Part shown: positions 1,290 through 15,460 of the stretch, piece after piece
Layout of the letters: the number at the start of each line of letters is the position of its first letter
How positions within the stretch are numbered: position 1 is the first letter of the stretch
Assembly: GCA_017444825.1 (NCBI GenBank)
Contig: JAFSVU010000018.1
Span: 1-53,100, forward strand
Direction: 5' to 3'
DNA: 53,100 bases
Origin: Clostridia bacterium
GTDB lineage: Bacteria > Bacillota > Clostridia > UBA1212
Translations under genes and position numbers: made by a program
Notes under the pieces: generated by a model
The model's database searches: none
Told to the model about the DNA's origin: nothing
Seen by the model: only the letters and a program-made list of their open reading frames with translations

Positions 1290-3080
1290 TTAGACCTCGC
1301 TGGTAAAATAAAAACGCTTTATGCTGCACCATGTCAGGCGCTCTGTACTAAACGGGCAATCATCATTATAATCTGCCGGGTCGAATCGCAACCCGCCGAC
1401 GAATCCATTCCAGTTAGGGTTGCTGCTCATATCGACGACATATGTGTGAGATTCTCCGTCCGGTACGGTTTCAAATTCGACCATGCGCTCTCCATACCAA
1501 ATCTGGCTTGCGACATCTGTGAAGAAGACCTGAGCTTTTTTACTTGTTCCGACGATTTTCATTTCAATATGGAGGTATCTGAAGTGAGCGGTGTTAAGGC
1601 TGAAGCCGGTTTTAAAAATGTATGGATCTTCATTTTGGAAAGCAAATCGTAGTTCACTTGGGTCATTGCTTATTGGTTCCATTTGGTAAATGTTGTCAAA
1701 TTTATCGCGCAGTTCAGGATCAAACACTGTCTTTGCGGTATCCTGGCCGGGAAGAGAAATCACGTTAACAGTATAATTGACAGGATCTTTTGATTGCAAT
1801 TCGATTTTGTTGATTTGGATCGGATGTATATATATTGAACAGACGCAACTGAACCTTTCATAATGCCTGTTTATCAGGTAGATGTAATCGTCATTAATAA
1901 TGATCTTATCCCTGCAAGCAGAGTGCCTTTCCGGAATGCCTGCGACGTCTACCCTGCAGGAATAAACCGGTGAATCAAAAACGATTGTCTGAGTGTACAG
2001 ACCGTCTTTTTTCTCTTTCAAATTCACCGGACATGTCAATACTAAATGAGTTGCAGTAAAATCTTCGGAGTACTGCAAACTGTTTAGTTCATGCAGTATT
2101 TGTGGCAGCAAATCGAGTTCTACCGCATATTCCTGTTCCAAAGATTTTATGAGCTTTCCTATATATTCGCTGTCAAAGCAAAGTGTTGCGGGAAACTGTC
2201 CGTTTTTTGACTGGTACTTTATATTCAGAAGTCTGATTTTTTCAAGTCTGGCAGCATGCTCACCGAATTCGCCGATCAGTTTTTTCAAGGCCTCGCTTAT
2301 ATTGTAATTATCGCCAATGTATAGTAGCCTTTCGTAAAGATACTCTTTGTGCTTTACAAAGTCGTGCAAGCTTTTGTAATTGATTTTGCAGTTGACAGAC
2401 TTTAATTCAGTTATAATCGTTCTATATAACTGAACGCCGTATACTACGTTAGGGTTATTGTAAAGTTCTTTCCTTGGCGAACTGTACCACTCGCTCTCTT
2501 TGACACAGAATAGATAGTGCGACAGGTTTTTGATAAAAAGATCGAGGTGAAAATCTGCTTTGAAAGATATTTTTGGCTTGACGACGGTCAGAGTTTGACT
2601 CACGGCGTCAATGCTTCCTCCGGACATGTAATAGGATCTCACTCCATTCAAGGAGTCGTATAACTCGCTTGCAGCGATTTTAGTTACACGCTGTCCCTTG
2701 GTTATGTCAAAAAAGATGGTATCGTATTGGGCTGTTTCTTTGTTGTAACCAAAAACCACCAGCGGATGTACAAAATGGTTCCAATGATATCGCATGGAAA
2801 CGGGTATAAAGTACTCATCGACCCATAGGATCGCGAATTGATCAGAGATTATCGCATTTTGCAGGACTTCATGAAAATCGTTCAATTCATCTATGGAATA
2901 ACAGGTCAGTTGATTGAATAGTCCGTAAAAATCCACGTTGTCGACATAATCGACAACACCGTCATACATCATCAGATTGACGAATCTTTCGGTGATCCAG
3001 CCGGTTTGACTGGGTCTGTTGATAAAATAAAGCAATGGATTGATCTGAAAAGCAGAATTCGTAACAGTGTTCTTTTTCAT
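1290..3080 (-). CDS. BtrH-like N-terminal domain protein with C-terminal beta-sandwich
   Basis: A 596-residue protein without a signal peptide. Roughly residues 15-160 have the layout of the butirosin BtrH N-terminal/papain-like family: FAILWVDEYFIPVS, then HWNHFVHPLVVFGYN, whose His is the usual acid/base position, then a beta-strand and acidic turn. BtrH moves an acyl group from an acyl carrier protein onto an amine. The expected N-terminal cysteine is not obvious here (the segment reads INRPSQTGWITERFV), so the enzyme may be catalytically different or inactive. About residues 440-596 form a carbohydrate-binding-like beta-sandwich with a conserved-looking NWNGFVGGLRFDPAD motif. Its ATG overlaps the ligase stop by 4 bases and GGAGG lies ahead of it, so it is translationally coupled to the ligase. 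Acyl transfer in the peptide pathway is inference. Confidence 0.6.
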   Translation of the reverse strand: MKKNTVTNSAFQINPLLYFINRPSQTGWITERFVNLMMYDGVVDYVDNVDFYGLFNQLTCYSIDELNDFHEVLQNAIISDQFAILWVDEYFIPVSMRYHWNHFVHPLVVFGYNKETAQYDTIFFDITKGQRVTKIAASELYDSLNGVRSYYMSGGSIDAVSQTLTVVKPKISFKADFHLDLFIKNLSHYLFCVKESEWYSSPRKELYNNPNVVYGVQLYRTIITELKSVNCKINYKSLHDFVKHKEYLYERLLYIGDNYNISEALKKLIGEFGEHAARLEKIRLLNIKYQSKNGQFPATLCFDSEYIGKLIKSLEQEYAVELDLLPQILHELNSLQYSEDFTATHLVLTCPVNLKEKKDGLYTQTIVFDSPVYSCRVDVAGIPERHSACRDKIIINDDYIYLINRHYERFSCVCSIYIHPIQINKIELQSKDPVNYTVNVISLPGQDTAKTVFDPELRDKFDNIYQMEPISNDPSELRFAFQNEDPYIFKTGFSLNTAHFRYLHIEMKIVGTSKKAQVFFTDVASQIWYGERMVEFETVPDGESHTYVVDMSSNPNWNGFVGGLRFDPADYNDDCPFSTERLTWCSIKRFYFTSEV

Positions 3081-4426
3081 TGGGTTTTTCCTCCGGGTTT
3101 GCTATCATTTACTATGTGATCAATTACTTCGCTTATGATTATTTTGCCGTTTCTGTTTCTCGGCAGGCTTGCACATCGGACGAAAATATAGGGTATCTCG
3201 TAAGACATCAATTTTGATCTCAGTATTTGTTTATCCTTTGGACCAATGTCTTTTTCATCTACGTACAGGCACCCGATCCGTTCACGGCCGGATATGTCCA
3301 CCTTTACTACAATGCACTCTTTTACGGAGGTGTTGTCTGTTATTATTGTTTCCACGTCGCCGGGATATATCTTATGGGAATCAATGATTATAACATCGTC
3401 TATCCTGCCTACAATGTGAAGCTCGTCGAATTCATCAATAAAGCCTATGTCTCCGGTGTTAAACCAGTTTTCGCAAAGTGACGCGTATTTCCATGTCCCT
3501 ACGGCATACCCTTCAAACTGACAGGGGGATTGAACGTGCAAAACACCATATACACCACGTGGCGTTTCTTTGCCTTGCTCATCAAAAATTTTTATTGCAA
3601 CACCCTTAACCGGCTTGCCGACAGAATTGGTTTTGCAGCACTCAGGCCTTTGAGCCGATACTCTCGGGCCGAGCTCTGACAAACCGTATACGTTGTAGAT
3701 GGGAATGTTTGAAAAAACATCATGCGCCTTTTCGTATGTTTTATCGTTCAAAATCGAGCCACTTACATAGATCGTCCTGACAGAGGAAAGATCATATTTT
3801 GCCTCATCGTAGGCATCCGCAAACATTGATAACAACGTGGGATTGACACATATGAGAGTGACTCCAAACAATGCAATATACTTAAACACATACCTTGGGG
3901 GAACAATTATTGGGCCTATTACAAGTTTCATACCTGTCTTAAGTGCGACAAGCAGTTCGCCTACTAATGTGGAGGAGTGTGAGATAGTTTTGCAAATGTA
4001 TATGCAATCACTTGGATCAGGCTTCATATAGTCGATGATCGCTTCTGCATTTGTATTGATCGCAAAGTGCGATAATATAATTCCTTTTGATTTTCCGGTG
4101 GTGCCTGAACTGTAAATAATAACGGCTTCTTCTCTTGTGTTTTTTTTATGAAAACTACTGTAGATATTATCCGGCAAAAGTGCAGGCGCTTCATTTAATC
4201 TTTCGAATGTAAAAAAACTGACTGAGGTCGACGCAATGGAAAATGCCTCATAATACGCCTTTTCAATATAGCACTTTTTGACACCGGCTTCTTCCATCAT
4301 TGCCAAAGCTGTATCCGCAGGTATTCTCCAATCTATGAGAACCGCACAATCACCATTATTCCAGATTTTGATTAGAGTGTCGATATACCCGATAGAGTTT
4401 TCTCCTATAATTGCGACTCTGCACAT
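3077..4426 (-). CDS. AMP-forming acyl/aryl/aminoacyl ligase (ANL superfamily)
   Basis: A 449-residue adenylate-forming enzyme, slightly short because the N-terminal subdomain is trimmed. Core motifs are visible: YSSGTTGKSKG near residues 105-115 (A3, phosphate loop), YNVYGLSELGPR near 245-258 (A5), NTGDIG and GRIDDVI (A7/A8 hinge) and PRNRNGKI at the C-terminus with the A10 lysine. Such enzymes activate a carboxylate as an acyl-adenylate and pass it to CoA or a carrier-protein thiol; the substrate cannot be read from sequence. AAGGAGA precedes the ATG at 4426. It is the middle gene of the leftward arm, between the nitroreductase and the BtrH-like gene. The acyl carrier protein of the opposite arm is a plausible acceptor, as inference. 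Confidence 0.85.
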   Translation of the reverse strand: MCRVAIIGENSIGYIDTLIKIWNNGDCAVLIDWRIPADTALAMMEEAGVKKCYIEKAYYEAFSIASTSVSFFTFERLNEAPALLPDNIYSSFHKKNTREEAVIIYSSGTTGKSKGIILSHFAINTNAEAIIDYMKPDPSDCIYICKTISHSSTLVGELLVALKTGMKLVIGPIIVPPRYVFKYIALFGVTLICVNPTLLSMFADAYDEAKYDLSSVRTIYVSGSILNDKTYEKAHDVFSNIPIYNVYGLSELGPRVSAQRPECCKTNSVGKPVKGVAIKIFDEQGKETPRGVYGVLHVQSPCQFEGYAVGTWKYASLCENWFNTGDIGFIDEFDELHIVGRIDDVIIIDSHKIYPGDVETIITDNTSVKECIVVKVDISGRERIGCLYVDEKDIGPKDKQILRSKLMSYEIPYIFVRCASLPRNRNGKIIISEVIDHIVNDSKPGGKTQ

Positions 4427-4516: not shown

Positions 4517-5023
4517 TCAGTAATTGTCTATCAGAAAAGAATTCAAATCTCTTCTTCTTGGTACCTTTGGTTTCTCTGAGGAATAACCAAAGACAATCAA
4601 ACCCATTAACTCAAGCGAATCATCTTTGATTTTCAGGAGTGACTTGATTTGGTCTTGCTTGGAAACTATTTCTCCGATCCAGCAACTGCTTATTCCCAAG
4701 GAGGTTGCAGCAAGCAGCATGTTTTGAATCGCTGCACCGCAAGATTGGACATCTTTTACGTAGTCATATGATAAGTGTTTGTCGAGAAAAACAAGAATGA
4801 ACAACGGCGCAGAACGCATCCAAGACTCGTAGGCCGACAGATGCGATAATTGAGAAATCATTTGGACATCAGTAACACAGCTGAACTTCCAAGGCTGACG
4901 ATTTTTACCGGATGGAGCACAAATTGCTGCCTCTAAAATATTCTTTTGTTTTTCAGCATCGATTACAGTTCTTTCGAAACTCCGGATGCTGCGTCTTTCT
5001 TTAATACAATCAATTACATCCAT
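4517..5023 (-). CDS. Nitroreductase-family flavin oxidoreductase
   Basis: A 168-residue protein with nitroreductase hallmarks: the N-terminal RRSIRSFE FMN-binding arginine motif, APSGKNRQPWKF, GAAIQNMLLAATSLGISSCWIG, and the C-terminal GYSSEKPKVPRR. Members bind FMN as dimers and reduce or oxidise diverse substrates; in natural-product clusters they often desaturate or tailor an intermediate. It is the promoter-proximal gene of the leftward arm, about 90 bases before the ligase. No YcaO cyclase is present, so azoline oxidation of the type seen in thiazole/oxazole peptides is not supported. The ribosome binding site is weak. Confidence 0.85.
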   Translation of the reverse strand: MDVIDCIKERRSIRSFERTVIDAEKQKNILEAAICAPSGKNRQPWKFSCVTDVQMISQLSHLSAYESWMRSAPLFILVFLDKHLSYDYVKDVQSCGAAIQNMLLAATSLGISSCWIGEIVSKQDQIKSLLKIKDDSLELMGLIVFGYSSEKPKVPRRRDLNSFLIDNY

Positions 5024-5734: not shown

Positions 5735-6013
5735 ATGAATGTAGAAACAAAAATAATTGAGCTAATTTTTCGTAGTGATAATTTAGAAGATTATAACATT
5801 GATGCTTCAGCCGATATAATGAGCATCAACATATTTGAAGATTTGGGATATGATTCGATTCAATTTGTAGAACTAATCATAAGTATTGAAAAATCATTTA
5901 TGATCGAGATCGATGATGACATGCTGGATATGAGTCTTTTTTCAACAGTTCAGGATATTGTGAAAAGCATCAAAGAAATGGTTGGAAACGGAGAAGAAGT
6001 AGAAAATGGATAA
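5735..6013 (+). CDS. Acyl carrier protein
   Basis: A 92-residue acidic protein of the four-helix acyl carrier fold. The phosphopantetheine site is FEDLGYDSIQFVELI with Ser41 in the DSI motif, followed by the typical acidic helix II and EIDDDMLDM. It should be modified by a 4'-phosphopantetheinyl transferase and hold a thioester-bound building block. The start follows AGGGAGAAAGG. It is the first structural gene of the rightward arm and overlaps the next gene by 8 bases. It is unlike a housekeeping AcpP (no fab neighbours, island base composition), so a dedicated role is likely. Probable loading partners are the PaaK-like enzyme directly downstream and the divergent ligase. Confidence 0.88.
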   Translation: MNVETKIIELIFRSDNLEDYNIDASADIMSINIFEDLGYDSIQFVELIISIEKSFMIEIDDDMLDMSLFSTVQDIVKSIKEMVGNGEEVENG

Positions 6014-7244
6014 TTGTTTGTTAGAGCGTATGGTTACGCATTGTTTTTCAACGGTTCCTTATTACGAAAAGATAAAGGAACAAGCCGGCGATTCTTTTTA
6101 CGGGCTTCCAATCATTACAAAGGAAATGGTTTCTTTAAATCCGGATGATTTTTTGTCGTCTTCCTATGTTAAGCCTTATGAACTAGGCAGGCTGATCAAT
6201 AAAAAAACATCCGGCAGTACGGGAACCTGCTTAACTATTTACTGGTCACACGGTGATGATACACTTGCCAATTTAGAGGCCTGGAAATATAGACACAAAT
6301 GGTATGGCGTGTCGATCAAGGATAAATATGTTTCTTTTCACTCCACACTTTATTACGCAAATCGTTTGGCAGAAGAAGAACCGTTGTTTATTCAAAGAGG
6401 TAATAATCTATCTTTGTGTAAAAACAAACTAACAAAGCAAACGATCGGTGAGTATTTCGAACTGATCAAAAGCGTAAAACCAAGCTGGATGTTTCTTCAA
6501 CCGAGTGTTTTGCAATTGTTATTCAGGTATGCTTCTGAAGAACAGTTATCCATTTTGAATGATCTGCAATATATTGAGCTTACGGGCGAATATCTTTCAG
6601 AGCAAACAAAAAAGGCTTTTGAATCGCTGATCCCCAATGTAAAAATTGCAAATATGTATGGAACAACTGAAACCGGTTGCGTCGCACTGCAGTGTCCCTG
6701 CGGACATATGCATATACTACAAAACGCTGTTGTTGAGATATTTGATGATGAGTATAAGCACCAAACAGAATCGGAAGGGAACGTGGTGCTGACCACGCTG
6801 AAAAACTATGCTATGCCGCTTCTTCGTTATCGAATAGGCGATAAGGGATTAATTAAGCGGTCAAACTGTGAATGTGGTTTTTGTGGAGATGATATTATCA
6901 TTACAGCGGGACGGGAAGGCGACATTGTTTATTCTCCTGACGGAAACAATAAGACCTGCTACAGTTTCCTAAAGGTAGTCGAATACGTAAACGATGAATT
7001 CAACAATCCCATCGTTCAGTTCAATTTTGTTCAGCCTGACAAACAATCATTGGTTATGTATTTACAGATCAAACCTTCCTATGACAAGTGGAAAAGAAGC
7101 ATTGAGCAATTATTATATGACAAACTCAGGGAAGAGTTTTCTGCATTCGTGAATATAAAGGTGGTGTTCGACGGTGAGTACGATTTTGAAAGAAATAACA
7201 AGATCAAGTTTTTTGAAAGAAAATGTCTTTCAGAAGGGGAATGA
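6006..7244 (+). CDS. PaaK/CapK-like adenylate-forming enzyme
   Basis: A 412-residue member of the phenylacetate-CoA ligase branch of the ANL superfamily. Motifs: KKTSGSTGTC near residues 67-75 (phosphate loop), MYGTTETGCVALQCPCGHMH near 217-236, RYRIGDKG near 275, then a C-x-CG-x-CG stretch that with the earlier CPCG may bind zinc. The small C-terminal domain is present. It should adenylate a small, often aromatic, carboxylic acid and transfer it to a thiol; overlap with the ACP gene suggests the ACP is the acceptor. This is a second activating enzyme besides the ligase at 3077-4426, so the locus could prepare two building blocks, or one enzyme could act in recycling. The substrate is unknown. 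Confidence 0.8.
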   Translation: MDNCLLERMVTHCFSTVPYYEKIKEQAGDSFYGLPIITKEMVSLNPDDFLSSSYVKPYELGRLINKKTSGSTGTCLTIYWSHGDDTLANLEAWKYRHKWYGVSIKDKYVSFHSTLYYANRLAEEEPLFIQRGNNLSLCKNKLTKQTIGEYFELIKSVKPSWMFLQPSVLQLLFRYASEEQLSILNDLQYIELTGEYLSEQTKKAFESLIPNVKIANMYGTTETGCVALQCPCGHMHILQNAVVEIFDDEYKHQTESEGNVVLTTLKNYAMPLLRYRIGDKGLIKRSNCECGFCGDDIIITAGREGDIVYSPDGNNKTCYSFLKVVEYVNDEFNNPIVQFNFVQPDKQSLVMYLQIKPSYDKWKRSIEQLLYDKLREEFSAFVNIKVVFDGEYDFERNNKIKFFERKCLSEGE

Positions 7245-7245
7245 G

Positions 7246-8691
7246 ATGAATAACCTGCCATTTATAAAACTGTTTAAATCTGTATATGGTCATTACTTTT
7301 TTGATGTTAACACGAATCAAATCGTGAAAATCAGCCAAGATGCCTACTTAAAGCTTGAAAAAATACTCAAGGAAGGTTCCCATACCGGAGGAAGCGATTT
7401 GATAGATGAACTGATCCAAGGTGATCTTGAACTGAGTGAGCTTAGAAGCGAAGGTTTTTTGAAAAGCAATCGCCCGTTAAAAATTGAAATGAAAGAGACA
7501 GCCAAGCTCCCTTATTTTCTGGAACACAGATTACGCACATTAACACTTCAGGTCACACAGCAGTGTAATTTTCGTTGCAGATACTGCCATTATACATACG
7601 GAGACGACAAACAATACCATTCGCATAAATCGAATTCAATGAGTTGGGAAACAGCAAAGGCGGCAATAGACTTCTTTGCGGAAAGAACGCGGGACACAGT
7701 ACGCTTAGACGTAGGATTTTATGGCGGCGAACCCTTACTTGAATATGAATTGATAAAAAAATGTGTGGAGTATTGCAAAACCAAGTTCGAAGGGAAAAAA
7801 CTCAGTTTCCATATGACCACCAACGCTTTTTTATTGACGGTAGATCGGGCAAGGTACTTAATCGAAAACGGGACAAGTATTCTTGTGAGCATAGATGGGC
7901 CCAGAGAGATACACGATAAAAACAGAAAAAACGCAGGAAACGGCTCCGGAACGTTTGATGTAGTATTTAAGAATTTGGAAAAAATAAAAAATGAAATTCC
8001 TCAATACTACGAAAAATTGTCGTTTAACAGCGTTTTGGATCCTGTTAACGATTGCAGCAAAGTGAACAATTTTTTTAACTGTGACATGTTCAGAAAACAA
8101 GAGGTTAAGGCATCAGTACTTCAGCCATCTGTTGGGAAAGGTGTTTTCTATTCTCAAGAGTATCTAAATACCGACAAGAAAGATAGGTTACTTGCGTTAC
8201 TTGCTAAAATTGGTGTCATAGAAGAATCGTGTCTTTCGGTGCTTGCACTTAACAATTTGACTGCCATTAAACGATTTGACGATGATATGCAGCGTTTTGA
8301 TGATATTTCGCAAGTTATGGGTCACGGTGGACCATGTCAACCGGGAGTGTTCAAGTTGTTTGTTACGACAAACGGGAATTTATTTCCTTGTGAAAAGATC
8401 AAAGATAATTCTGAGGTAATGAAGTTAGGAACTGTTTTTACTTCAATAGATGCAGAGAAAGCGAAATACTTGTTTAATGTCGGAAACATCTGTACGGAAC
8501 GCTGTGTAAATTGCTGGAACATACGCCACTGCCAGCTGTGCGCAACAAAAATAAACGATGGCAATGCTCTGTCTGCCGAGATGTGTGCAACCGAATGTAA
8601 GAAAAATTGTTCAAACACGGCATCTCGAATAAAAGCATATATTGCCTTGAGAGAAGTTAAGGAAATGATTGATAAGGGGGCTGTGTCATAA
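7246..8691 (+). CDS. ccpM: Radical SAM/SPASM Cys-rich peptide maturase (CcpM-like)
   Basis: A 481-residue enzyme. Residues 1-95 resemble a peptide-recognition region. The radical SAM cluster motif CNFRCRYC has Cys107, Cys111 and Cys114, followed by the SAM-binding GFYGGEPLL motif and ILVSIDGP. The C-terminal SPASM region is Cys-rich (CQPG, FPCEK, CTERCVNCWNIRHCQLC, CATECKKNC), enough for two auxiliary clusters. Length and context match the clostridial CcpM (TIGR04068-type) maturases that modify Cys-rich precursors, probably by thioether or related C-S/C-C bond formation. The ATG at 7246 has AAGGGGA ahead of it and sits one base past the previous stop. The likely substrate is the peptide encoded at 10044-10208. 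Confidence 0.85.
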   Translation: MNNLPFIKLFKSVYGHYFFDVNTNQIVKISQDAYLKLEKILKEGSHTGGSDLIDELIQGDLELSELRSEGFLKSNRPLKIEMKETAKLPYFLEHRLRTLTLQVTQQCNFRCRYCHYTYGDDKQYHSHKSNSMSWETAKAAIDFFAERTRDTVRLDVGFYGGEPLLEYELIKKCVEYCKTKFEGKKLSFHMTTNAFLLTVDRARYLIENGTSILVSIDGPREIHDKNRKNAGNGSGTFDVVFKNLEKIKNEIPQYYEKLSFNSVLDPVNDCSKVNNFFNCDMFRKQEVKASVLQPSVGKGVFYSQEYLNTDKKDRLLALLAKIGVIEESCLSVLALNNLTAIKRFDDDMQRFDDISQVMGHGGPCQPGVFKLFVTTNGNLFPCEKIKDNSEVMKLGTVFTSIDAEKAKYLFNVGNICTERCVNCWNIRHCQLCATKINDGNALSAEMCATECKKNCSNTASRIKAYIALREVKEMIDKGAVS

Positions 8692-9791
8692 TGATTAAAA
8701 AAACAATCGTTTATCCGTATAGCAGAAGTTTTGCAGCGTATTTGAGACATATCAATTGCAATAAATTATACAACGTTACTGAAGCTGTTATCCCCGGGAG
8801 ATGGTGGAAGGACAATGAAGATGCTGGAGGCATAGACGGGGGCGAAAAAATAGGAATACCGATCAGATATGGTTTTGAGGACTGTTTAAATCAGTGTGAT
8901 ACGGTAATATGGGCAAGTTATGAGTATTATGATAACAAAGCCTTTTATGATACTGTTTTATCGAAGATAGAAAAAGCTTTAGAGCTGGGGAAAAACATTG
9001 TATGCTTTGAGGAACTGACAAAAAAAGAACTTCAACTGTTTAAAGAAAAAGCGGCTGCAAATAATTGTCTGTTCATCTACAAAGAAAACGAAAAATATCC
9101 CGGATCCGATGACGGTGCGCAGAAACCCATAGATGTGCCTATAATAACCGTAACGGGACTCACAGAAGAGTGTTCTAAGTTTGATACGGAATTAAACGTT
9201 TACAGAGCGCTCTCTGCGAAAGGATACAGGGTTTTGCTGATATCATCCAAAACTAACGCAAACCTTTTGAACATTTATTCATTTCCATCATTTATGTTTT
9301 CCCCAAAACGTAGTGAAATGGGAAAAATGAGATTGCTAAGATCGTATATAGCACATTTACAACAGAAGGTGTCTCCGGACGTTATAGTTTTGGGCGTACC
9401 GGGAGGACTGCTGCCGTTTAACGATCAGTATGATATGCATTACGGTATTATTGCATATGAAGTATTCTCGGTGCTAAAAACGGATTACAATGTTGTCAAT
9501 GTATGGTGCGATGTTTTAGACAGTTTAATCATCGATAAGATACCCGATATCTGCAGGTACAGATACGGAATGAACGTAAATGCGATAGGAGTATCAAATA
9601 TAAGCTTATATCTCGAGGGTTTGCAAGATGAACAAAGTACTTTGGAGTATAGCGTTTATGACTCGGATATGGTTGATAAGACAATAGCTTTTACAAACAA
9701 GGAGTCTAATAGCCTGAAAATGTATAACCTGGTAAAGAATGATTCAGTTGACAAATTAGTTGATGACATCATTATCTCATTATCTGAATAA
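8691..9791 (+). CDS. TIGR04066-type peptide maturation system protein
   Basis: A 366-residue protein that starts on the last base of the maturase stop codon. N-terminal KTIVYPYSRSFAAYLRHI and VIPGRWWKDNEDAGG, a middle FEDCLNQCDTVIWASY, and a nucleotide-binding-like second half (PIITVTGLTEECSKFDTEL followed by YRALSAKGYRVLLISS) match what I recall of the TIGR04066 family, which occurs only beside CcpM-type maturases and ACP-related proteins. A classical Walker A lysine motif is not evident, although the strand-loop-helix pattern resembles the P-loop of the cobyrinate synthase/DUF1611 group. Its biochemical role is unknown; it may act as an ATP-dependent partner of the maturase or of the carrier protein. 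Confidence 0.7.
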   Translation: MIKKTIVYPYSRSFAAYLRHINCNKLYNVTEAVIPGRWWKDNEDAGGIDGGEKIGIPIRYGFEDCLNQCDTVIWASYEYYDNKAFYDTVLSKIEKALELGKNIVCFEELTKKELQLFKEKAAANNCLFIYKENEKYPGSDDGAQKPIDVPIITVTGLTEECSKFDTELNVYRALSAKGYRVLLISSKTNANLLNIYSFPSFMFSPKRSEMGKMRLLRSYIAHLQQKVSPDVIVLGVPGGLLPFNDQYDMHYGIIAYEVFSVLKTDYNVVNVWCDVLDSLIIDKIPDICRYRYGMNVNAIGVSNISLYLEGLQDEQSTLEYSVYDSDMVDKTIAFTNKESNSLKMYNLVKNDSVDKLVDDIIISLSE

Positions 9792-9804: not shown

Positions 9805-10047
9805 ATGAACTGCATTGATCAAAACCGGAATGAAATAGAAACGATTATACGTGAAATACTATGTAAAAAACTTTGTAGGGACGCAGAAGATCTGTCAAAA
9901 CTATCCGTTACGGAGCTGCTTTATTTGTATGGAGAAATATGTGCAGAGTTCAATATTCTTCTTACGGCGGACGATATTAACAATGGCTGTTTTTCTTCAT
10001 TACATGATCTGATTGATACCTTATGTGAGAAAGGAAATAAAAAATGA
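9805..10047 (+). CDS. Peptide maturation ACP-related protein
   Basis: An 80-residue protein with an ACP-like helical pattern, corresponding to the TIGR04069-type ACP-related proteins of these loci. Where a carrier protein has DSL/DSI, this one reads KLSVTELLYLYGEI: a serine (about residue 34) is kept but the preceding Asp is Leu, so phosphopantetheinylation is uncertain. AAAGGAAC lies before the ATG at 9805. Its TGA overlaps the ATG of the precursor peptide (ATGA), making it the translational partner of the substrate gene. It could be a chaperone or docking factor for the precursor rather than an acyl carrier. Confidence 0.7.
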   Translation: MNCIDQNRNEIETIIREILCKKLCRDAEDLSKLSVTELLYLYGEICAEFNILLTADDINNGCFSSLHDLIDTLCEKGNKK

Positions 10048-10208
10048 AAAAACTCGTTAAAAAAAATGAAAACAGGTTAATGAATATAAACATACAGGCG
10101 TTTGGTGCCTGCAGGAGCGGGGCATGTAGTTGTGCGTGCTATGGTCCCAAACATCCCGAATTCGATGACAACACCGATCGTGATCTGTTGCCTACATTGC
10201 ACAAATAA
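10044..10208 (+). CDS. Cys-rich RiPP precursor peptide (CLI_3235/Clo7bot-like)
   Basis: A 54-residue ORF starting in the ATGA overlap with the ACP-related gene. The Lys/Asn-rich leader (MKKLVKKNENRLMNINIQAF) is followed by a core with Cys23, Cys28, Cys30 and Cys32 in GACRSGACSCACYGPKHP and an acidic, cysteine-free tail ending DLLPTLHK. A basic leader, a C-x4-C-x-C-x-C cluster and a position behind the maturase and ACP-related genes are what is expected of a CcpM substrate. The cysteines are the likely thioether donors. The subtilase 61 bases downstream is the probable leader peptidase. Exact family membership (CLI_3235 or Clo7bot type) is from memory of these families and untested. Confidence 0.82.
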   Translation: MKKLVKKNENRLMNINIQAFGACRSGACSCACYGPKHPEFDDNTDRDLLPTLHK

Positions 10209-10269: not shown

Positions 10270-11457
10270 ATGATCAAAGTAGCGTTTATTGACAATGGTA
10301 TTACAACGGGTTTACTTCAGGAGGGGTTTGTAGATGAGACTGTTAGCTTTTTCACAGCGGACAACTCGCAAGACACGAACGATGGTACAGTCAACCATGG
10401 TTCATTGTGTGCAGCGATTTTTGAAAAGTATTTGCATTTTGACAAGCCGTACATAATAGACGTAAGAATTTCAAAAGTTGGCGAAGAGTCCTACCTGGCA
10501 GAATTCATTAAGGCTATTGAGTGGTGTACAGATAACAATGTTGACATAATAAATATCAGCATGGGGACCACAAACCGTTTTGCATTTCCGGTTATCAGGA
10601 AAGCCTTGCATGCTGCATTTATGAAAGGAATCATTGTTGTCGCAGCCATGGATAATGGACAAAAGTATACTCTGCCGGCCTGTCTTTCGGGTGTTATAGG
10701 CGTAAAAACGTCGACGCTTTATACAAACGGAGAGTATAAACTCAGATGGTACCCTTTTGACGGAATAGATGTTATTACGGGGGGACGGCATCAAATTCAA
10801 ACTCCTGATGGCAAGGAATTGGCTACTATTAATACAAACAGTTTTTCTGCACCTGTTATCACTGCGCACGTCTCAAACATTTTTTTTGAGTTTGGGAAAA
10901 TACCGTACGATGAAGTGATGCTGTTGCTGGCGAAGAGGGCGGCAAACACGTTTGGTTATTTCATAAAAGGATATTATCCATACTTCTGGAACAGTATTAC
11001 AGATTACAAGGATGACTTCCTTTGGGATAAAGAAATGTACTCAAAGATTGTAAAACCGTATCTGAAGAATAAGAAGAAGCCAATTGAAACACCGGCTGTT
11101 TCTTTCGCCGGTGATAACAAATCCAAATGCGTCGAAGTAATCGACAAGTTCGCTCAAAAACTGGAAAAAGAAAGCTACACATTTATCATATTGTCGGATT
11201 CGATATTGAGATTCTCGGACAATGTCATTATACCGTCAGGATGCGATATAGAGAACTTTTTTTCCTGTGTTGACGATCTGTTTACACCCGACGTTTATCT
11301 TATTGTGTCAGAAAACAAGTGTCCTGCGGATGTATTGGTTAAAGTTGACGATTCAATTCATATCGAATATGAAGACTGTGGAAAAAACTTCGCAAAAGAA
11401 TACTTGATGAACGATATTTGTGAGGCTTGTGGATATTTGCTCGAGATACTTAAATGA
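10270..11457 (+). CDS. Subtilisin-like (S8) serine protease, probable leader peptidase
   Basis: A 395-residue protein beginning at the ATG behind GGAG (10261-10264). The S8 catalytic triad is visible: Asp8 in AFIDNGI, His43 in VNHGSLCAA and Ser191 in NSFSAPVIT, with oxyanion Asn129 in VVAAMDNG. There is no signal peptide or pro-region, so it should act in the cytosol. The C-terminal ~190 residues are not protease-like and may recognise the substrate or exporter. Because neither exporter carries a C39 peptidase domain, this enzyme is the natural candidate to remove the leader of the peptide encoded just upstream. Confidence 0.85.
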   Translation: MIKVAFIDNGITTGLLQEGFVDETVSFFTADNSQDTNDGTVNHGSLCAAIFEKYLHFDKPYIIDVRISKVGEESYLAEFIKAIEWCTDNNVDIINISMGTTNRFAFPVIRKALHAAFMKGIIVVAAMDNGQKYTLPACLSGVIGVKTSTLYTNGEYKLRWYPFDGIDVITGGRHQIQTPDGKELATINTNSFSAPVITAHVSNIFFEFGKIPYDEVMLLLAKRAANTFGYFIKGYYPYFWNSITDYKDDFLWDKEMYSKIVKPYLKNKKKPIETPAVSFAGDNKSKCVEVIDKFAQKLEKESYTFIILSDSILRFSDNVIIPSGCDIENFFSCVDDLFTPDVYLIVSENKCPADVLVKVDDSIHIEYEDCGKNFAKEYLMNDICEACGYLLEILK

Positions 11458-11470
11458 GAAAGGTGCAAAA

Positions 11471-13255
11471 ATGAGATCTTTTTTTAAGACGGTTCGGTTT
11501 TCGTTTGGATTGCTGTATAAGTCAAGCAAACTGATGTTTGCAGCGTATTTTTTGCTGCAGGTGGCTTGCAGCGTTGTCCCATTAATGAGTGTTTACGTGT
11601 TGAGAGACTTGTTAAACGCTCTGGTCGATATAGAGTCAGTAGGGTGGTCTGTTCTTTGGCCGGTTTGCCTGTATGCCGTTATCCTGATCTCCTTGATCGT
11701 TCTCCAATCGATGGATTCCTTGCTTCATGATCTGATGTATGAAAGGGCAATGCACAAATATGCCTATGATTTTGCTCAAAAAATGAGTGTATTGCCAATG
11801 TCATTTATTGACACAGCTGAAGGAAGAGACAAGATTGATGAGGCGCGTTATTTGATGACGACGGCGGTCAACTTTCCGACGTATCTCATCAGATTTTTGT
11901 CGGTTGCAGCTTCTTTTGTTATAGCATACATGCAGATTGCGTCGTTTAATATTGGTTTTTCTCTTTTATTTATTTCCCTCTCTGTTCCGGGAATAATATT
12001 TCAAATGGTTTTTTCCAGGAAAGCTGACCGTCTCAGAAGGGCTCAGGCTCCTGACGTAAGAAAGTTTTGTTATTACAGATGGATGCTGACTGATGCGTGG
12101 CCCGCAAAAGACGTTCGCATGTACGATCTCACGAAACCGATCTCGAAAAGATATGATGAAGAAAAAAAGCATTACCGCGATGCAAACAAAAAGCTGGATA
12201 AGAAAAAGATGTGGGCGGAACTGCTCACGGAATTGGTTAAGAGAAGCGGCGAGATCGCATTCAGCATTTTTGTAATAATAAAAGCGGTTTCGGGGGAGAT
12301 CGGCGTGGGCGACACGGCAATGTACATTAGTTTTGCCGTTGCTGCGATCGAGTCGTTCGAGGGTGTTGCAGGCATTCTTGTTTACGGAGTGATACGTTCG
12401 AGTGCGAATATGAAGTATGTTTTTGATTTCTTCGAAAGAGAAACACCCGAACGTAAGACAGGAACGCGAAAGCTTGAATCGTTTGAATCATTGGTTTTTG
12501 ACAATGTATATTTTAAGTATCCTGCTTCCGAAACATACGTTTTGCAAGGCGTTTCTTTTGAGTTAAAAAAAGGTGACAAGCTTTCTATCGTGGGGGTCAA
12601 CGGTTCGGGAAAATCGACGATAGTAAAACTGATGCTCGGCCTGTACGAGATCGAATCGGGGACAGTGCTTATAAACGGATATCCGGTAAGCGATTATGAC
12701 ATTCAGGACGTACGCAGACTCTTTTCCGCACTTTTCCAGAGTTTTGTTCAGTATCCGCTCACGCTGAGAGAAAACATTGCACTGTCTGATTTAGACCGGA
12801 TGGATAATGATAAGGAGATTGAGAGCGTATTGGTTAAAAGCGGTGTATTTGATGAGATCAAGCCAAAGCTTAAGAATGGGTTGGACTCTTTTATGACCAG
12901 GAGCTTTGACGATGAAGGGACCGAACTTTCAAGAGGACAGTGGCAGAAGATCGCGTTGTCCCGTGCATATTTTAAGAACGCAGAGATCGTTATTTTTGAT
13001 GAACCCTCTGCCGCACTTGACGCTGAGGCTGAAGACCGGATATTTAAGAATTTTGAAACGATAGCTGACGGAAAAACAAGCGTAATGATCTCACACAGGA
13101 TATCGAGTGCCAGGATCTCAAACAAAATAATTGTGTTGGACGGTGGGAAGATCACCGAACATGGAACTCATGACGAGCTTATGGAACTAAGCGGTCTGTA
13201 TGCAAAGCTGTATAACCTCCAAAGAAACAAATACACGATAAAGGAGGAAGAATGA
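11471..13255 (+). CDS. ABC exporter half-transporter, subunit A
   Basis: A 594-residue fused permease-ATPase of the type I exporter fold: about six membrane segments in residues 15-310, then an NBD with VGVNGSGKST (Walker A), an LSRGQ signature in place of LSGGQ, IVIFDEPSAALD (Walker B with the catalytic Glu) and SHRIS (switch His). The changed signature suggests it forms a heterodimer with the next gene in which one ATP site is weaker. The ATG at 11471 is chosen because AAAGGTG precedes it. It lacks a peptidase domain. Likely role: export of the processed peptide product and/or self-resistance. Confidence 0.87.
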   Translation: MRSFFKTVRFSFGLLYKSSKLMFAAYFLLQVACSVVPLMSVYVLRDLLNALVDIESVGWSVLWPVCLYAVILISLIVLQSMDSLLHDLMYERAMHKYAYDFAQKMSVLPMSFIDTAEGRDKIDEARYLMTTAVNFPTYLIRFLSVAASFVIAYMQIASFNIGFSLLFISLSVPGIIFQMVFSRKADRLRRAQAPDVRKFCYYRWMLTDAWPAKDVRMYDLTKPISKRYDEEKKHYRDANKKLDKKKMWAELLTELVKRSGEIAFSIFVIIKAVSGEIGVGDTAMYISFAVAAIESFEGVAGILVYGVIRSSANMKYVFDFFERETPERKTGTRKLESFESLVFDNVYFKYPASETYVLQGVSFELKKGDKLSIVGVNGSGKSTIVKLMLGLYEIESGTVLINGYPVSDYDIQDVRRLFSALFQSFVQYPLTLRENIALSDLDRMDNDKEIESVLVKSGVFDEIKPKLKNGLDSFMTRSFDDEGTELSRGQWQKIALSRAYFKNAEIVIFDEPSAALDAEAEDRIFKNFETIADGKTSVMISHRISSARISNKIIVLDGGKITEHGTHDELMELSGLYAKLYNLQRNKYTIKEEE

Positions 13256-13256
13256 A

Positions 13257-15041
13257 ATGAACAAAGTGAAGCGTTTTTTCTCCGGAATGATCAAAAATGT
13301 CTGGTTTGGTATTAAGACAAGTTTCTTTGCGTCAAAGTTCTATTTTTCAATGAAAATATTGATACTTCTTTCCGAGACCCTTATTCCGCTTGTGAATATC
13401 TGGCTTTGGAAAGAGATCCTGAACGGAATCGTGGATTACGAAGCCAAGGGCGGCGCAATTTTGATATGTCTTGCGGTTTATCTTGTCCTGCAACTGGCAA
13501 CCTATCTTCTGGCGAAATTCGGTTCGTACGTAAACACCCGCTTCGGAGATGAGATGCAGTTCTATATCGAAAAGGTTATGATGGAAAAAACCTCCCGGGT
13601 GTCTTTGGCGTTTTTTGATTCTGCTCAAATGGGGGATAAGGTCCGCCATGCAAGAAGCAATTTTGACGCCATGACGCAGATGACCTGGCTTGCGTTTGAT
13701 ATTGTCTCAGCGTTTATCAACGTAATTGCCGCGCTTGTTATCGTCCTGGCATACAAGTGGTGGGTGGGGCTTATTACGCTTGCATTTTTGATCCCGTTTA
13801 TGATTTATAACAAAAAACGGGCTGAGCGCAGATTGGAAATGGAAAAAGAGCAGCTTCGTGACAACCGCAAGATGGATTATTACGGGAACGTGTTTTCCGA
13901 CAACAACATCCAATTTGAGGTGAAACTGAATAACATTGGCGCGTATTTCCTGAGTAAATACAGAGAAACATGGAAAAAGCTTTACAACATCAACAAATCG
14001 GAAAACGTCAGGCACAATATAATTAATTCGCTGATCCTTGCGCTCAACGTCTCTTGTGATTTTCTGGTGTTGATATTGTCTGTCTTCGACGTCGTTAACA
14101 ATCAGATAGGGATCGGCGACGTACAGTATAATCTGAGCATAGTTGCGAGGCTTCATTCACAGGCGCAATTGCTGATGGAGCAGGTGATCCAATTCCTTAA
14201 CAGCAATACAAGGCTGATGGAGCTTCAGGAATTTTTGGATATTAAACCGGAAACAGAAAAGAGCGGCACGCTTAAGCCTTCGCAAAACCCAAAGATCGAG
14301 TTCATAGGCGTCAGCTTTCGATACCCCAATTCTGACCAATACGTTCTCAGGAACTGTTCATTTACAATAGAACCGAACGAAAAGATCGGTTTGATAGGTC
14401 TTAACGGGGCAGGCAAATCAACAATAATCAAGTTGATGTTCCGTTTCTACGATCCGGAAGAAGGGTGCATAAAACTGGACGGGGTCGACTTGAAGGAGTA
14501 TGACGTTTATGCGGTGAGAAAGGTGTTTGGCGTTCTGTTTCAGGACTATGTTACTTACTGCCTGCCGCTTAGGGAGATCATAGCTCTTTCCGATTTTGAC
14601 GAGCGATTCAATGATGAAAAGCTTAAAAGAGCCTGCGATATCAGTGGCGCAAGTGAGATCATCAAGGACTGGGAGGACGGTTTCGAGAGCGTTTTGGGGC
14701 GCTACTATGCAGATAACGGGAAAGACCTTTCCGGTGGTCAATGGCAGATTGTAGGCCTTGCGCGTGCATACTTTAAGGACAGTGATTATATGATTTTGGA
14801 TGAACCTTCTGCAGCGCTTGACCCCTTTGCGGAAGACCGGATATTCGAGCGGCTTTACCGGTTGAGCGAAGGGAAAAGCTCGGTTACTATCTCACACAGG
14901 CTGTCCAACACGACTCTTGCGGATAAACTGTTGGTCATTGACGACGGTCATATCATAGAGCAGGGTTCTCACTTTGAGCTTCTTAAGCAAAACGGGAAGT
15001 ATGCGCAGCTGTTCCGGCTTCAGGCAGAAAAATACCAATGA
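13257..15041 (+). CDS. ABC exporter half-transporter, subunit B
   Basis: A 594-residue partner of the preceding gene, one base after its stop. Membrane domain in residues 20-310; NBD with IGLNGAGKST, a canonical DLSGGQW signature, YMILDEPSAALD and SHRLS. Equal length and parallel architecture support a heterodimeric exporter. It is the last gene of the rightward arm and is followed after about 28 bases by a strong intrinsic terminator. Confidence 0.88.
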   Translation: MNKVKRFFSGMIKNVWFGIKTSFFASKFYFSMKILILLSETLIPLVNIWLWKEILNGIVDYEAKGGAILICLAVYLVLQLATYLLAKFGSYVNTRFGDEMQFYIEKVMMEKTSRVSLAFFDSAQMGDKVRHARSNFDAMTQMTWLAFDIVSAFINVIAALVIVLAYKWWVGLITLAFLIPFMIYNKKRAERRLEMEKEQLRDNRKMDYYGNVFSDNNIQFEVKLNNIGAYFLSKYRETWKKLYNINKSENVRHNIINSLILALNVSCDFLVLILSVFDVVNNQIGIGDVQYNLSIVARLHSQAQLLMEQVIQFLNSNTRLMELQEFLDIKPETEKSGTLKPSQNPKIEFIGVSFRYPNSDQYVLRNCSFTIEPNEKIGLIGLNGAGKSTIIKLMFRFYDPEEGCIKLDGVDLKEYDVYAVRKVFGVLFQDYVTYCLPLREIIALSDFDERFNDEKLKRACDISGASEIIKDWEDGFESVLGRYYADNGKDLSGGQWQIVGLARAYFKDSDYMILDEPSAALDPFAEDRIFERLYRLSEGKSSVTISHRLSNTTLADKLLVIDDGHIIEQGSHFELLKQNGKYAQLFRLQAEKYQ

Positions 15042-15137: not shown

Positions 15138-15460
15138 GTTTGCAAATAGAATACATAGGATAAGTAAAAGCGGTGCCGGACAAGGTAACAGGTAAGAGGT
15201 AATAGGTAATAGGGGCCCACGTCGACTACATTTCATCGAGGAACGATTCTGCACGAAGTGCAGCCAAGTGACGAGATGCAAGGTGCGAGACGCAAGGGGT
15301 GCCGCTCAAGGTAACAGGTAAAAAGTAAGAGGTAATAGGGGCCCACGTCGACCACATTTCATCGAGGAACGATTCTGCACGAAGTGCAGCCAAGTGACGA
15401 GATGCAAGGTGCGAGACGCAAGGGGTGCCGCCTTAGGTAAAAAGTAAGAGGTAATAAGTT
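15138..15460. repeat. 126-bp tandem repeat with GTAATA-type short repeats
   Basis: This stretch has no gene. It begins with GCGGTGCCGGACAAGGTAA, passes through several GGTAATA/GGTAAGA units, then GGGGCCCACGTCGAC, ATTTCATCGAGGAACG and a CTGCAC-GAA-GTGCAG hairpin. The whole block recurs with a period of 126 bases (GGGGCCCAC at 15212 and again at 15338), and the GGTGCCG plus GTAA part starts a third time near 15425. Related pieces occur at 19372-19440 (inverted), 21672-21705 and 45517-45596. It separates the AT-rich island from the GC-rich backbone. Confidence 0.85.

Follow-up and report, generated by a model that had tools for sequence, protein, structure and literature searches.

A radical SAM gene of the CcpM type lies in a tight operon on contig JAFSVU010000018.1 of a Clostridia bacterium, and the question raised by this locus is which peptide the encoded enzyme modifies. 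It is quite probable, in our assessment, that the answer is a small ORF further along the same operon, at positions 10044-10208 of the window (the whole 53,100-nucleotide stretch analyzed here), and that this ORF encodes the ribosomal precursor of a CcpM-modified RiPP, divergently related to the CLI_3235/CcpM systems, which would mature as proposed below. From sequence, the neighboring radical enzyme very probably turns this peptide into a cross-linked antimicrobial, the type of crosslink being a prediction. A divergent CcpM cluster thereby gains its missing substrate, in a gene so tiny that annotation would easily miss it.

A Small Cysteine-Rich Reading Frame in a Maturation Operon

The precursor and the genes that surround it are as follows.

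7246-8691, + strand: CcpM-type radical SAM/SPASM maturase (TIGR04068, 469.4 bits, cut-off 500)
8691-9791, + strand: TIGR04066 peptide maturation protein (252.7 bits, above the cut-off of 200)
9805-10047, + strand: acyl-carrier-related protein, TIGR04069-like (25.7 bits against a cut-off of 70)
10044-10208, + strand: precursor peptide of a divergent CLI_3235 type (ORF translation, TIGR04065 match, alignment, held-out profile)
10270-11457, + strand: subtilase, probable leader peptidase (PF00082; nearest NCBIfam model QhpE)
11471-13255, + strand: ABC exporter subunit 1 (family match)
13257-15041, + strand: ABC exporter subunit 2 (family match)

On the + strand the full order is ACP, PaaK-like ligase, CcpM, TIGR04066, carrier-related protein, precursor, subtilase and two ABC proteins, and from the ACP gene to the precursor all junctions overlap or are at most 14 bases wide. 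A dispersed repeat lies directly to the right of the cluster (15160-15460), with 79 matches in the genome, more than 30 of which exceed 100 bases at 77-92% identity.

The ORF comprises 54 codons plus a stop and translates to MKKLVKKNENRLMNINIQAFGACRSGACSCACYGPKHPEFDDNTDRDLLPTLHK. Translation confirms exactly what the first-pass annotation had described, namely a 54-codon ORF in ATGA overlap with the stop of the carrier-related gene, a basic leader, cysteines 23, 28, 30 and 32 in a C-x4-C-x-C-x-C spacing, and GPKHP after the core. The leader occupies approximately residues 1-21 (MKKLVKK...IQAFG) and is followed by the cysteine cluster (23-32) and an acidic, cysteine-free tail (33-54) that contains EFDDNTDRD; the charges are +4 for the leader and -1 for the core. 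A purine-rich, plausible ribosome-binding site, AGAAAGGAAATAAAAAATG, lies just 5' of the start codon. Among the 195 ATG-start ORFs of 30-90 amino acids in the window, the precursor alone has four cysteines within 10 residues and it alone has the leader motif M[KR]KL.K[KR]. Since shuffled windows yield between zero and four ORFs of comparable cysteine density (mean ∼0.75), cysteine density by itself is not significant, and it is homology that decides whether the ORF is real.

Homology of the Precursor and Placement of the Cluster

Small cysteine-bearing ORFs were gathered from 32 loci of other genomes, each containing CcpM (TIGR04068) and TIGR04066 genes, and 28 precursors of other CcpM clusters, including SacP23 but excluding the window sequence, were used to build a held-out profile. 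Searched against the complete 2.45 Mb genome in all six frames, this profile gave a single match, the precursor itself, at start codon 10044 with an E-value of 7.2e-7. The curated model for CLI_3235 family bacteriocin precursors, TIGR04065, aligns residues 1-32 of the precursor with positions 1-30 of its 34, at 19.5 bits (E 8.1e-4) and thus below the NCBI cut-off of 26 bits; SacP23 scores higher (40.2 bits), as do two further precursors, at 27.9 and 31.9 bits. The alignment nevertheless reveals the CLI_3235 feature set in the precursor, with the leader motif followed by an A[YF] motif and a cysteine-rich stretch, and the ORF adjoins CcpM, TIGR04066, TIGR04069-like and subtilase genes as CLI_3235 precursors do. 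The small ORFs of the relatives have MKKLGKK...EAY...CxCxC in common. The leader and cysteines of the window precursor align with those of 29 relatives and SacP23, although its C-x4-C-x-C-x-C spacing is absent from every one of them and their tails are mostly Ser/Asn/Tyr-rich rather than acidic.

A homologous small cysteine ORF is present in 27 of the 32 other loci, a count that is partly circular because the majority of these ORFs went into the profile, while the match in the window is not. The ORF mostly precedes CcpM, and in nine of the 27 it comes downstream of TIGR04066 as in the window; hence homologues do occur at the corresponding position in related clusters. The gene order CcpM, TIGR04066, carrier-related gene, precursor is also found again, in locus L070, where CcpM is spread over two overlapping frames, and L092 looks alike. 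No near-identical cluster was found in a second genome.

These data support the earlier proposal that the ORF encodes the probable radical SAM substrate, through the TIGR04065 and held-out matches and the gene neighborhood. Of the two precursor families suggested at that time for HMM comparison, CLI_3235 fits and Clo7bot does not, as the precursor has no Clo7bot match and the maturase scores 469 bits as CcpM versus 64 bits (cut-off 600) with the Clo7bot maturase model. Because TIGR04065, TIGR04068 and TIGR04069 all score below their curated cut-offs, the naming of the cluster is a matter of distant homology and synteny. With three of four family models under the NCBI cut-offs and extra genes present, we class it, on sequence grounds, as a diverged form of the CLI_3235/CcpM type rather than a strict member.

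The same evidence bears on two readings in which the peptide would not be a CcpM substrate at all. That a frame containing cysteine codons has stayed open here by chance might be argued from the shuffled windows, which have ∼0.75 ORFs of like cysteine density on average, yet this is contradicted by the sole genome match of the held-out profile falling at this locus and by the ribosome-binding site, ATGA coupling and leader motif, and we give it almost no weight. CxCxC clusters can bind metals, and a peptide that remains unmodified, with its cysteines coordinating a metal or forming disulfides while the radical SAM enzyme acts on some other substrate, would be in keeping with this. We consider it very improbable, given that the family profile reveals no other candidate substrate in the genome and that such precursors are paired with CcpM in most of the loci examined.

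The Maturase and the Proposed Maturation Pathway

The CcpM protein contains CNFRCRYC at residues 107-114 and a cysteine-rich C-terminal half, as is typical of SPASM enzymes, and its next-best family is that of RumMC (209 bits), with lachnocin at 202 bits and PapB at 177 bits. The best solved relative by sequence is 5wgg, which we take to be CteB, a sactisynthase. CteB is described in PMC8172795, where sactipeptide topology and SPASM chemistry are also reviewed. None of the papers found reports a solved structure for a CcpM product. In the subtilase, a candidate triad of Asp8, His43 and Ser193 can be read from the sequence in the expected motifs. The QHNDH maturation locus, suggested by the QhpE match, was considered and rejected, as the QhpE and QHNDH-maturase models score far below their cut-offs and the neighboring genes differ. 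In the carrier-related protein no phosphopantetheine site of the DS(L/I) type is visible, and SVTELLYLY stands in its place.

We propose that CcpM binds the basic leader MKKLVKK...IQAFG and, with its radical SAM and auxiliary Fe-S clusters, would link up to four cysteine thiols (23, 28, 30 and 32) to the tail (33-54). The acceptors of these thioethers would be backbone or side-chain carbons of the tail, giving hairpins, and each bond would lower the mass by 2 Da. Maturation may be assisted by TIGR04066, probably together with the protease, and by the carrier-related protein. The subtilase would then cut the leader off near the AFG/A boundary, and the peptide, most likely an antibacterial, would leave the cell through the two ABC proteins. 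Leader binding, thioether formation, leader removal and ABC export are proposed because the family assignments imply them. The tail may also be trimmed, since the mass of SacP23 is ∼1 kDa below that of its predicted core. The acyl module described below probably readies an acid on a carrier, and this acid may be attached to the peptide. The first-pass statement that the ORF defines the product is safe only in part, as neither the crosslinks nor tail trimming nor a possible acylation can be deduced from the sequence of the ORF.

The TIGR04066 Protein

An AlphaFold2 model of the TIGR04066 protein, made with 28 sequences, has a pLDDT of 88, and Foldseek matched it to the DUF1611 structures 2g0t and 2obn (E 6e-12 and 1.5e-11, TM ∼0.63) and to DgcN (7xrj, E 2e-8). 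As modeled, the protein has a DUF1611/DgcN-like fold, in which the putative P-loop region is degenerate with the lysine mostly kept (NKF or similar in most members). Four clusters that also contain a related radical SAM gene encode a subtilase whose C-terminal portion is a TIGR04066-like domain.

L071, 4911-6752: subtilase-TIGR04066-like fusion
L072, 6821-8647: subtilase-TIGR04066-like fusion
L100, 3477-5147: subtilase-TIGR04066-like fusion
L101, 5868-7550: subtilase-TIGR04066-like fusion

The authors of the SacP23 study took TIGR04066 for an immunity protein (PMC10731318), an assignment supported by neither the fold match nor the fusions, and the existence of the latter argues that TIGR04066 works with the protease instead. 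An ACP-like gene whose DSL site is intact is present in L071 and L072 as well. Near the fused subtilases of the other two clusters there are small ORFs (L100, 1378-1819; L101, 9042-9188) with the common pattern SLKK-N-NYSTV-TLGCHCGC, which probably represent a second precursor family. The family model does not detect TIGR04066 in any of the other 30 genomes of the order. A divergent homologue was detected in the order in G013 only, by a dedicated profile that has that very protein among its rows.

The Acyl-Activation Module

The genes to the left of CcpM suggest that the cluster includes the activation of a small acid and its transfer to a carrier protein.

5735-6013, + strand: acyl carrier protein (ACP) with an intact LGYDSI site (PP-binding, 30.4 bits)
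6006-7244, + strand: PaaK-like AMP-dependent ligase (AMP-binding, 58.1 bits), its gene overlapping that of the ACP and stopping immediately ahead of CcpM
4517-5023, - strand: flavoprotein of the nitroreductase family, perhaps belonging to the acyl module (family match)
3077-4426, - strand: second adenylating enzyme, AMP-binding (family match, orthologue search)
1290-3080, - strand: BtrH_N/AziU3-like protein carrying a carbohydrate-binding-like domain at its C terminus (BtrH_N match, fold match)

The last three genes run divergently from the precursor operon. Clear orthologues of the second adenylating enzyme (51-56% identity) are present in only three other genomes among the 391 of the class that were searched, and extending the search to the phylum added none outside the class. 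G013, one of the three, belongs to the same order but another family and contains a run of AMP ligase, ACP, PaaK-like ligase, CcpM-like and TIGR04066-like genes (L112, 9847-15042), with the AMP ligase 52% identical to the second adenylating enzyme of the window, the CcpM-like gene scoring 360 bits with TIGR04068, and two BtrH-like proteins nearby. No CcpM gene was found near the ligase orthologue of the other two genomes in the stretch read, the contig of G260 ending beside the orthologue. This module probably belongs to the present cluster variant. In the G013 operon no CLI_3235-type leader was found. Following that operon is a 48-residue ORF with three cysteines (L112, 15122-15268) that the CLI_3235 profile does not match and that is possibly a precursor of another type, and upstream in the same region an adenylating enzyme, an ACP and a BtrH-like protein occur together once more (L112, 117-3432).

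The BtrH-like protein matches BtrH_N with an E-value of 0.005, below the cut-off. Its structural model, with a pLDDT of 64, is of intermediate quality, and the best fold match is AziU3 of Streptomyces sahachiroi (E 2e-8). AziU3 functions in azinomycin biosynthesis, BtrH_N/AziU3-type proteins act in carrier-protein chemistry, and the window protein is a probable part of the acyl module. Acyl transfer by this protein is uncertain, since it has Trp at the position held by Cys in the two G013 homologues. Its C-terminal domain, probably carbohydrate-binding, recurs in proteins of roughly 1000 residues across the order.

Crosslink Acceptors and Possible Acylation

Two further readings accept the precursor as the CcpM substrate and differ in what is made of it. 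The bonds might be β- or γ-carbon thioethers to Asp or Glu, as in PapB-like ranthipeptides, and not the α-carbon thioethers of sactipeptides. The tail of the precursor is rich in these residues, the maturase scores not far lower with PapB than with RumMC and lachnocin, and PapB itself joins Cys to Asp/Glu (PMC9413430). Nonetheless RumMC scores above PapB, and Asp/Glu-defined acceptors are unlikely for the family as a whole because the tails of the relatives are mostly not acidic; we regard this reading as possible but rather unlikely.

Acylation would add to our preferred explanation, with the ACP-loaded acid joined to the N-terminal amine, a lysine or a Thr/Ser of the tail. An ACP whose serine is intact and a PaaK-like ligase, both encoded in this compact operon, point in this direction, as do the BtrH_N/AziU3-type fold and the second adenylating enzyme, which is rare (four of 391 class genomes, this one included) but has a CcpM-type gene as its neighbor in two families. 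Set against this, there is no certain acyltransferase, given the Trp-for-Cys replacement and the model quality of the BtrH-like protein, the SacP23 cluster manages without such a module, and what the module produces could be another compound altogether, so that we advance acylation only tentatively. More speculative still is a specific hybrid RiPP, in which an acid placed on the ACP by the PaaK-like (or second) ligase would be attached by the BtrH/AziU3-type enzyme to the radical-SAM-crosslinked CLI_3235-type peptide. In CcpM systems the degenerate carrier-related protein would then be a remnant of such a carrier or work alongside it. No radical-SAM RiPP combining an acyl carrier protein with a subtilase turned up in a search of the literature. 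With the CcpM substrate proposed, maturation becomes testable, and the locus raises family-wide questions as to the roles of TIGR04066 and the carrier-like protein and the joining of carrier-bound acids to peptides.

Comparison with Known Systems

Among better known enzymes, RumMC of ruminococcin C and CteB resemble CcpM as SPASM radical SAM maturases, being the next-best NCBIfam and the best PDB sequence match, respectively, but by score they are separate maturase families. The likeness to QhpE/QhpD of quinohemoprotein amine dehydrogenase maturation consists in the subtilase, which is nearest to QhpE, and in the radical SAM protein, which also scores with the QHNDH maturase model. The sactipeptide-like cluster of Roseburia intestinalis L1-82 has the same TIGR04068, TIGR04066, TIGR04069, subtilase and ABC transporter genes, and while a 2015 survey of gut genomes found these markers without a structural gene (PMC4573289), a small precursor is identified in the window.

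The nearest experimentally studied relative is SacP23 from Paenibacillus polymyxa #23, with the precursor MRKLVKRSTNVGDTIEAFGCGCSCYCPC... and a cluster of TIGR04068, TIGR04066, TIGR04069, subtilase and ABC transporter genes, which when expressed in B. subtilis yielded a heat-stable, protease-sensitive anti-MRSA peptide of 3404 Da (m/z 3404) whose Edman sequencing was blocked and whose linkages were not determined (PMC10731318). The window precursor differs from SacP23 and CLI_3235 in falling below the TIGR04065 cut-off, in having only four cysteines, spaced C-x4-C-x-C-x-C, and an acidic tail, in the position of its gene after the carrier-related gene, and in the extra ACP/ligase module. It shares with SacP23 the M[KR]KLVK[KR]...I.AFG leader, the cysteine-rich core, the cysteine-free tail and the same marker genes in the cluster.
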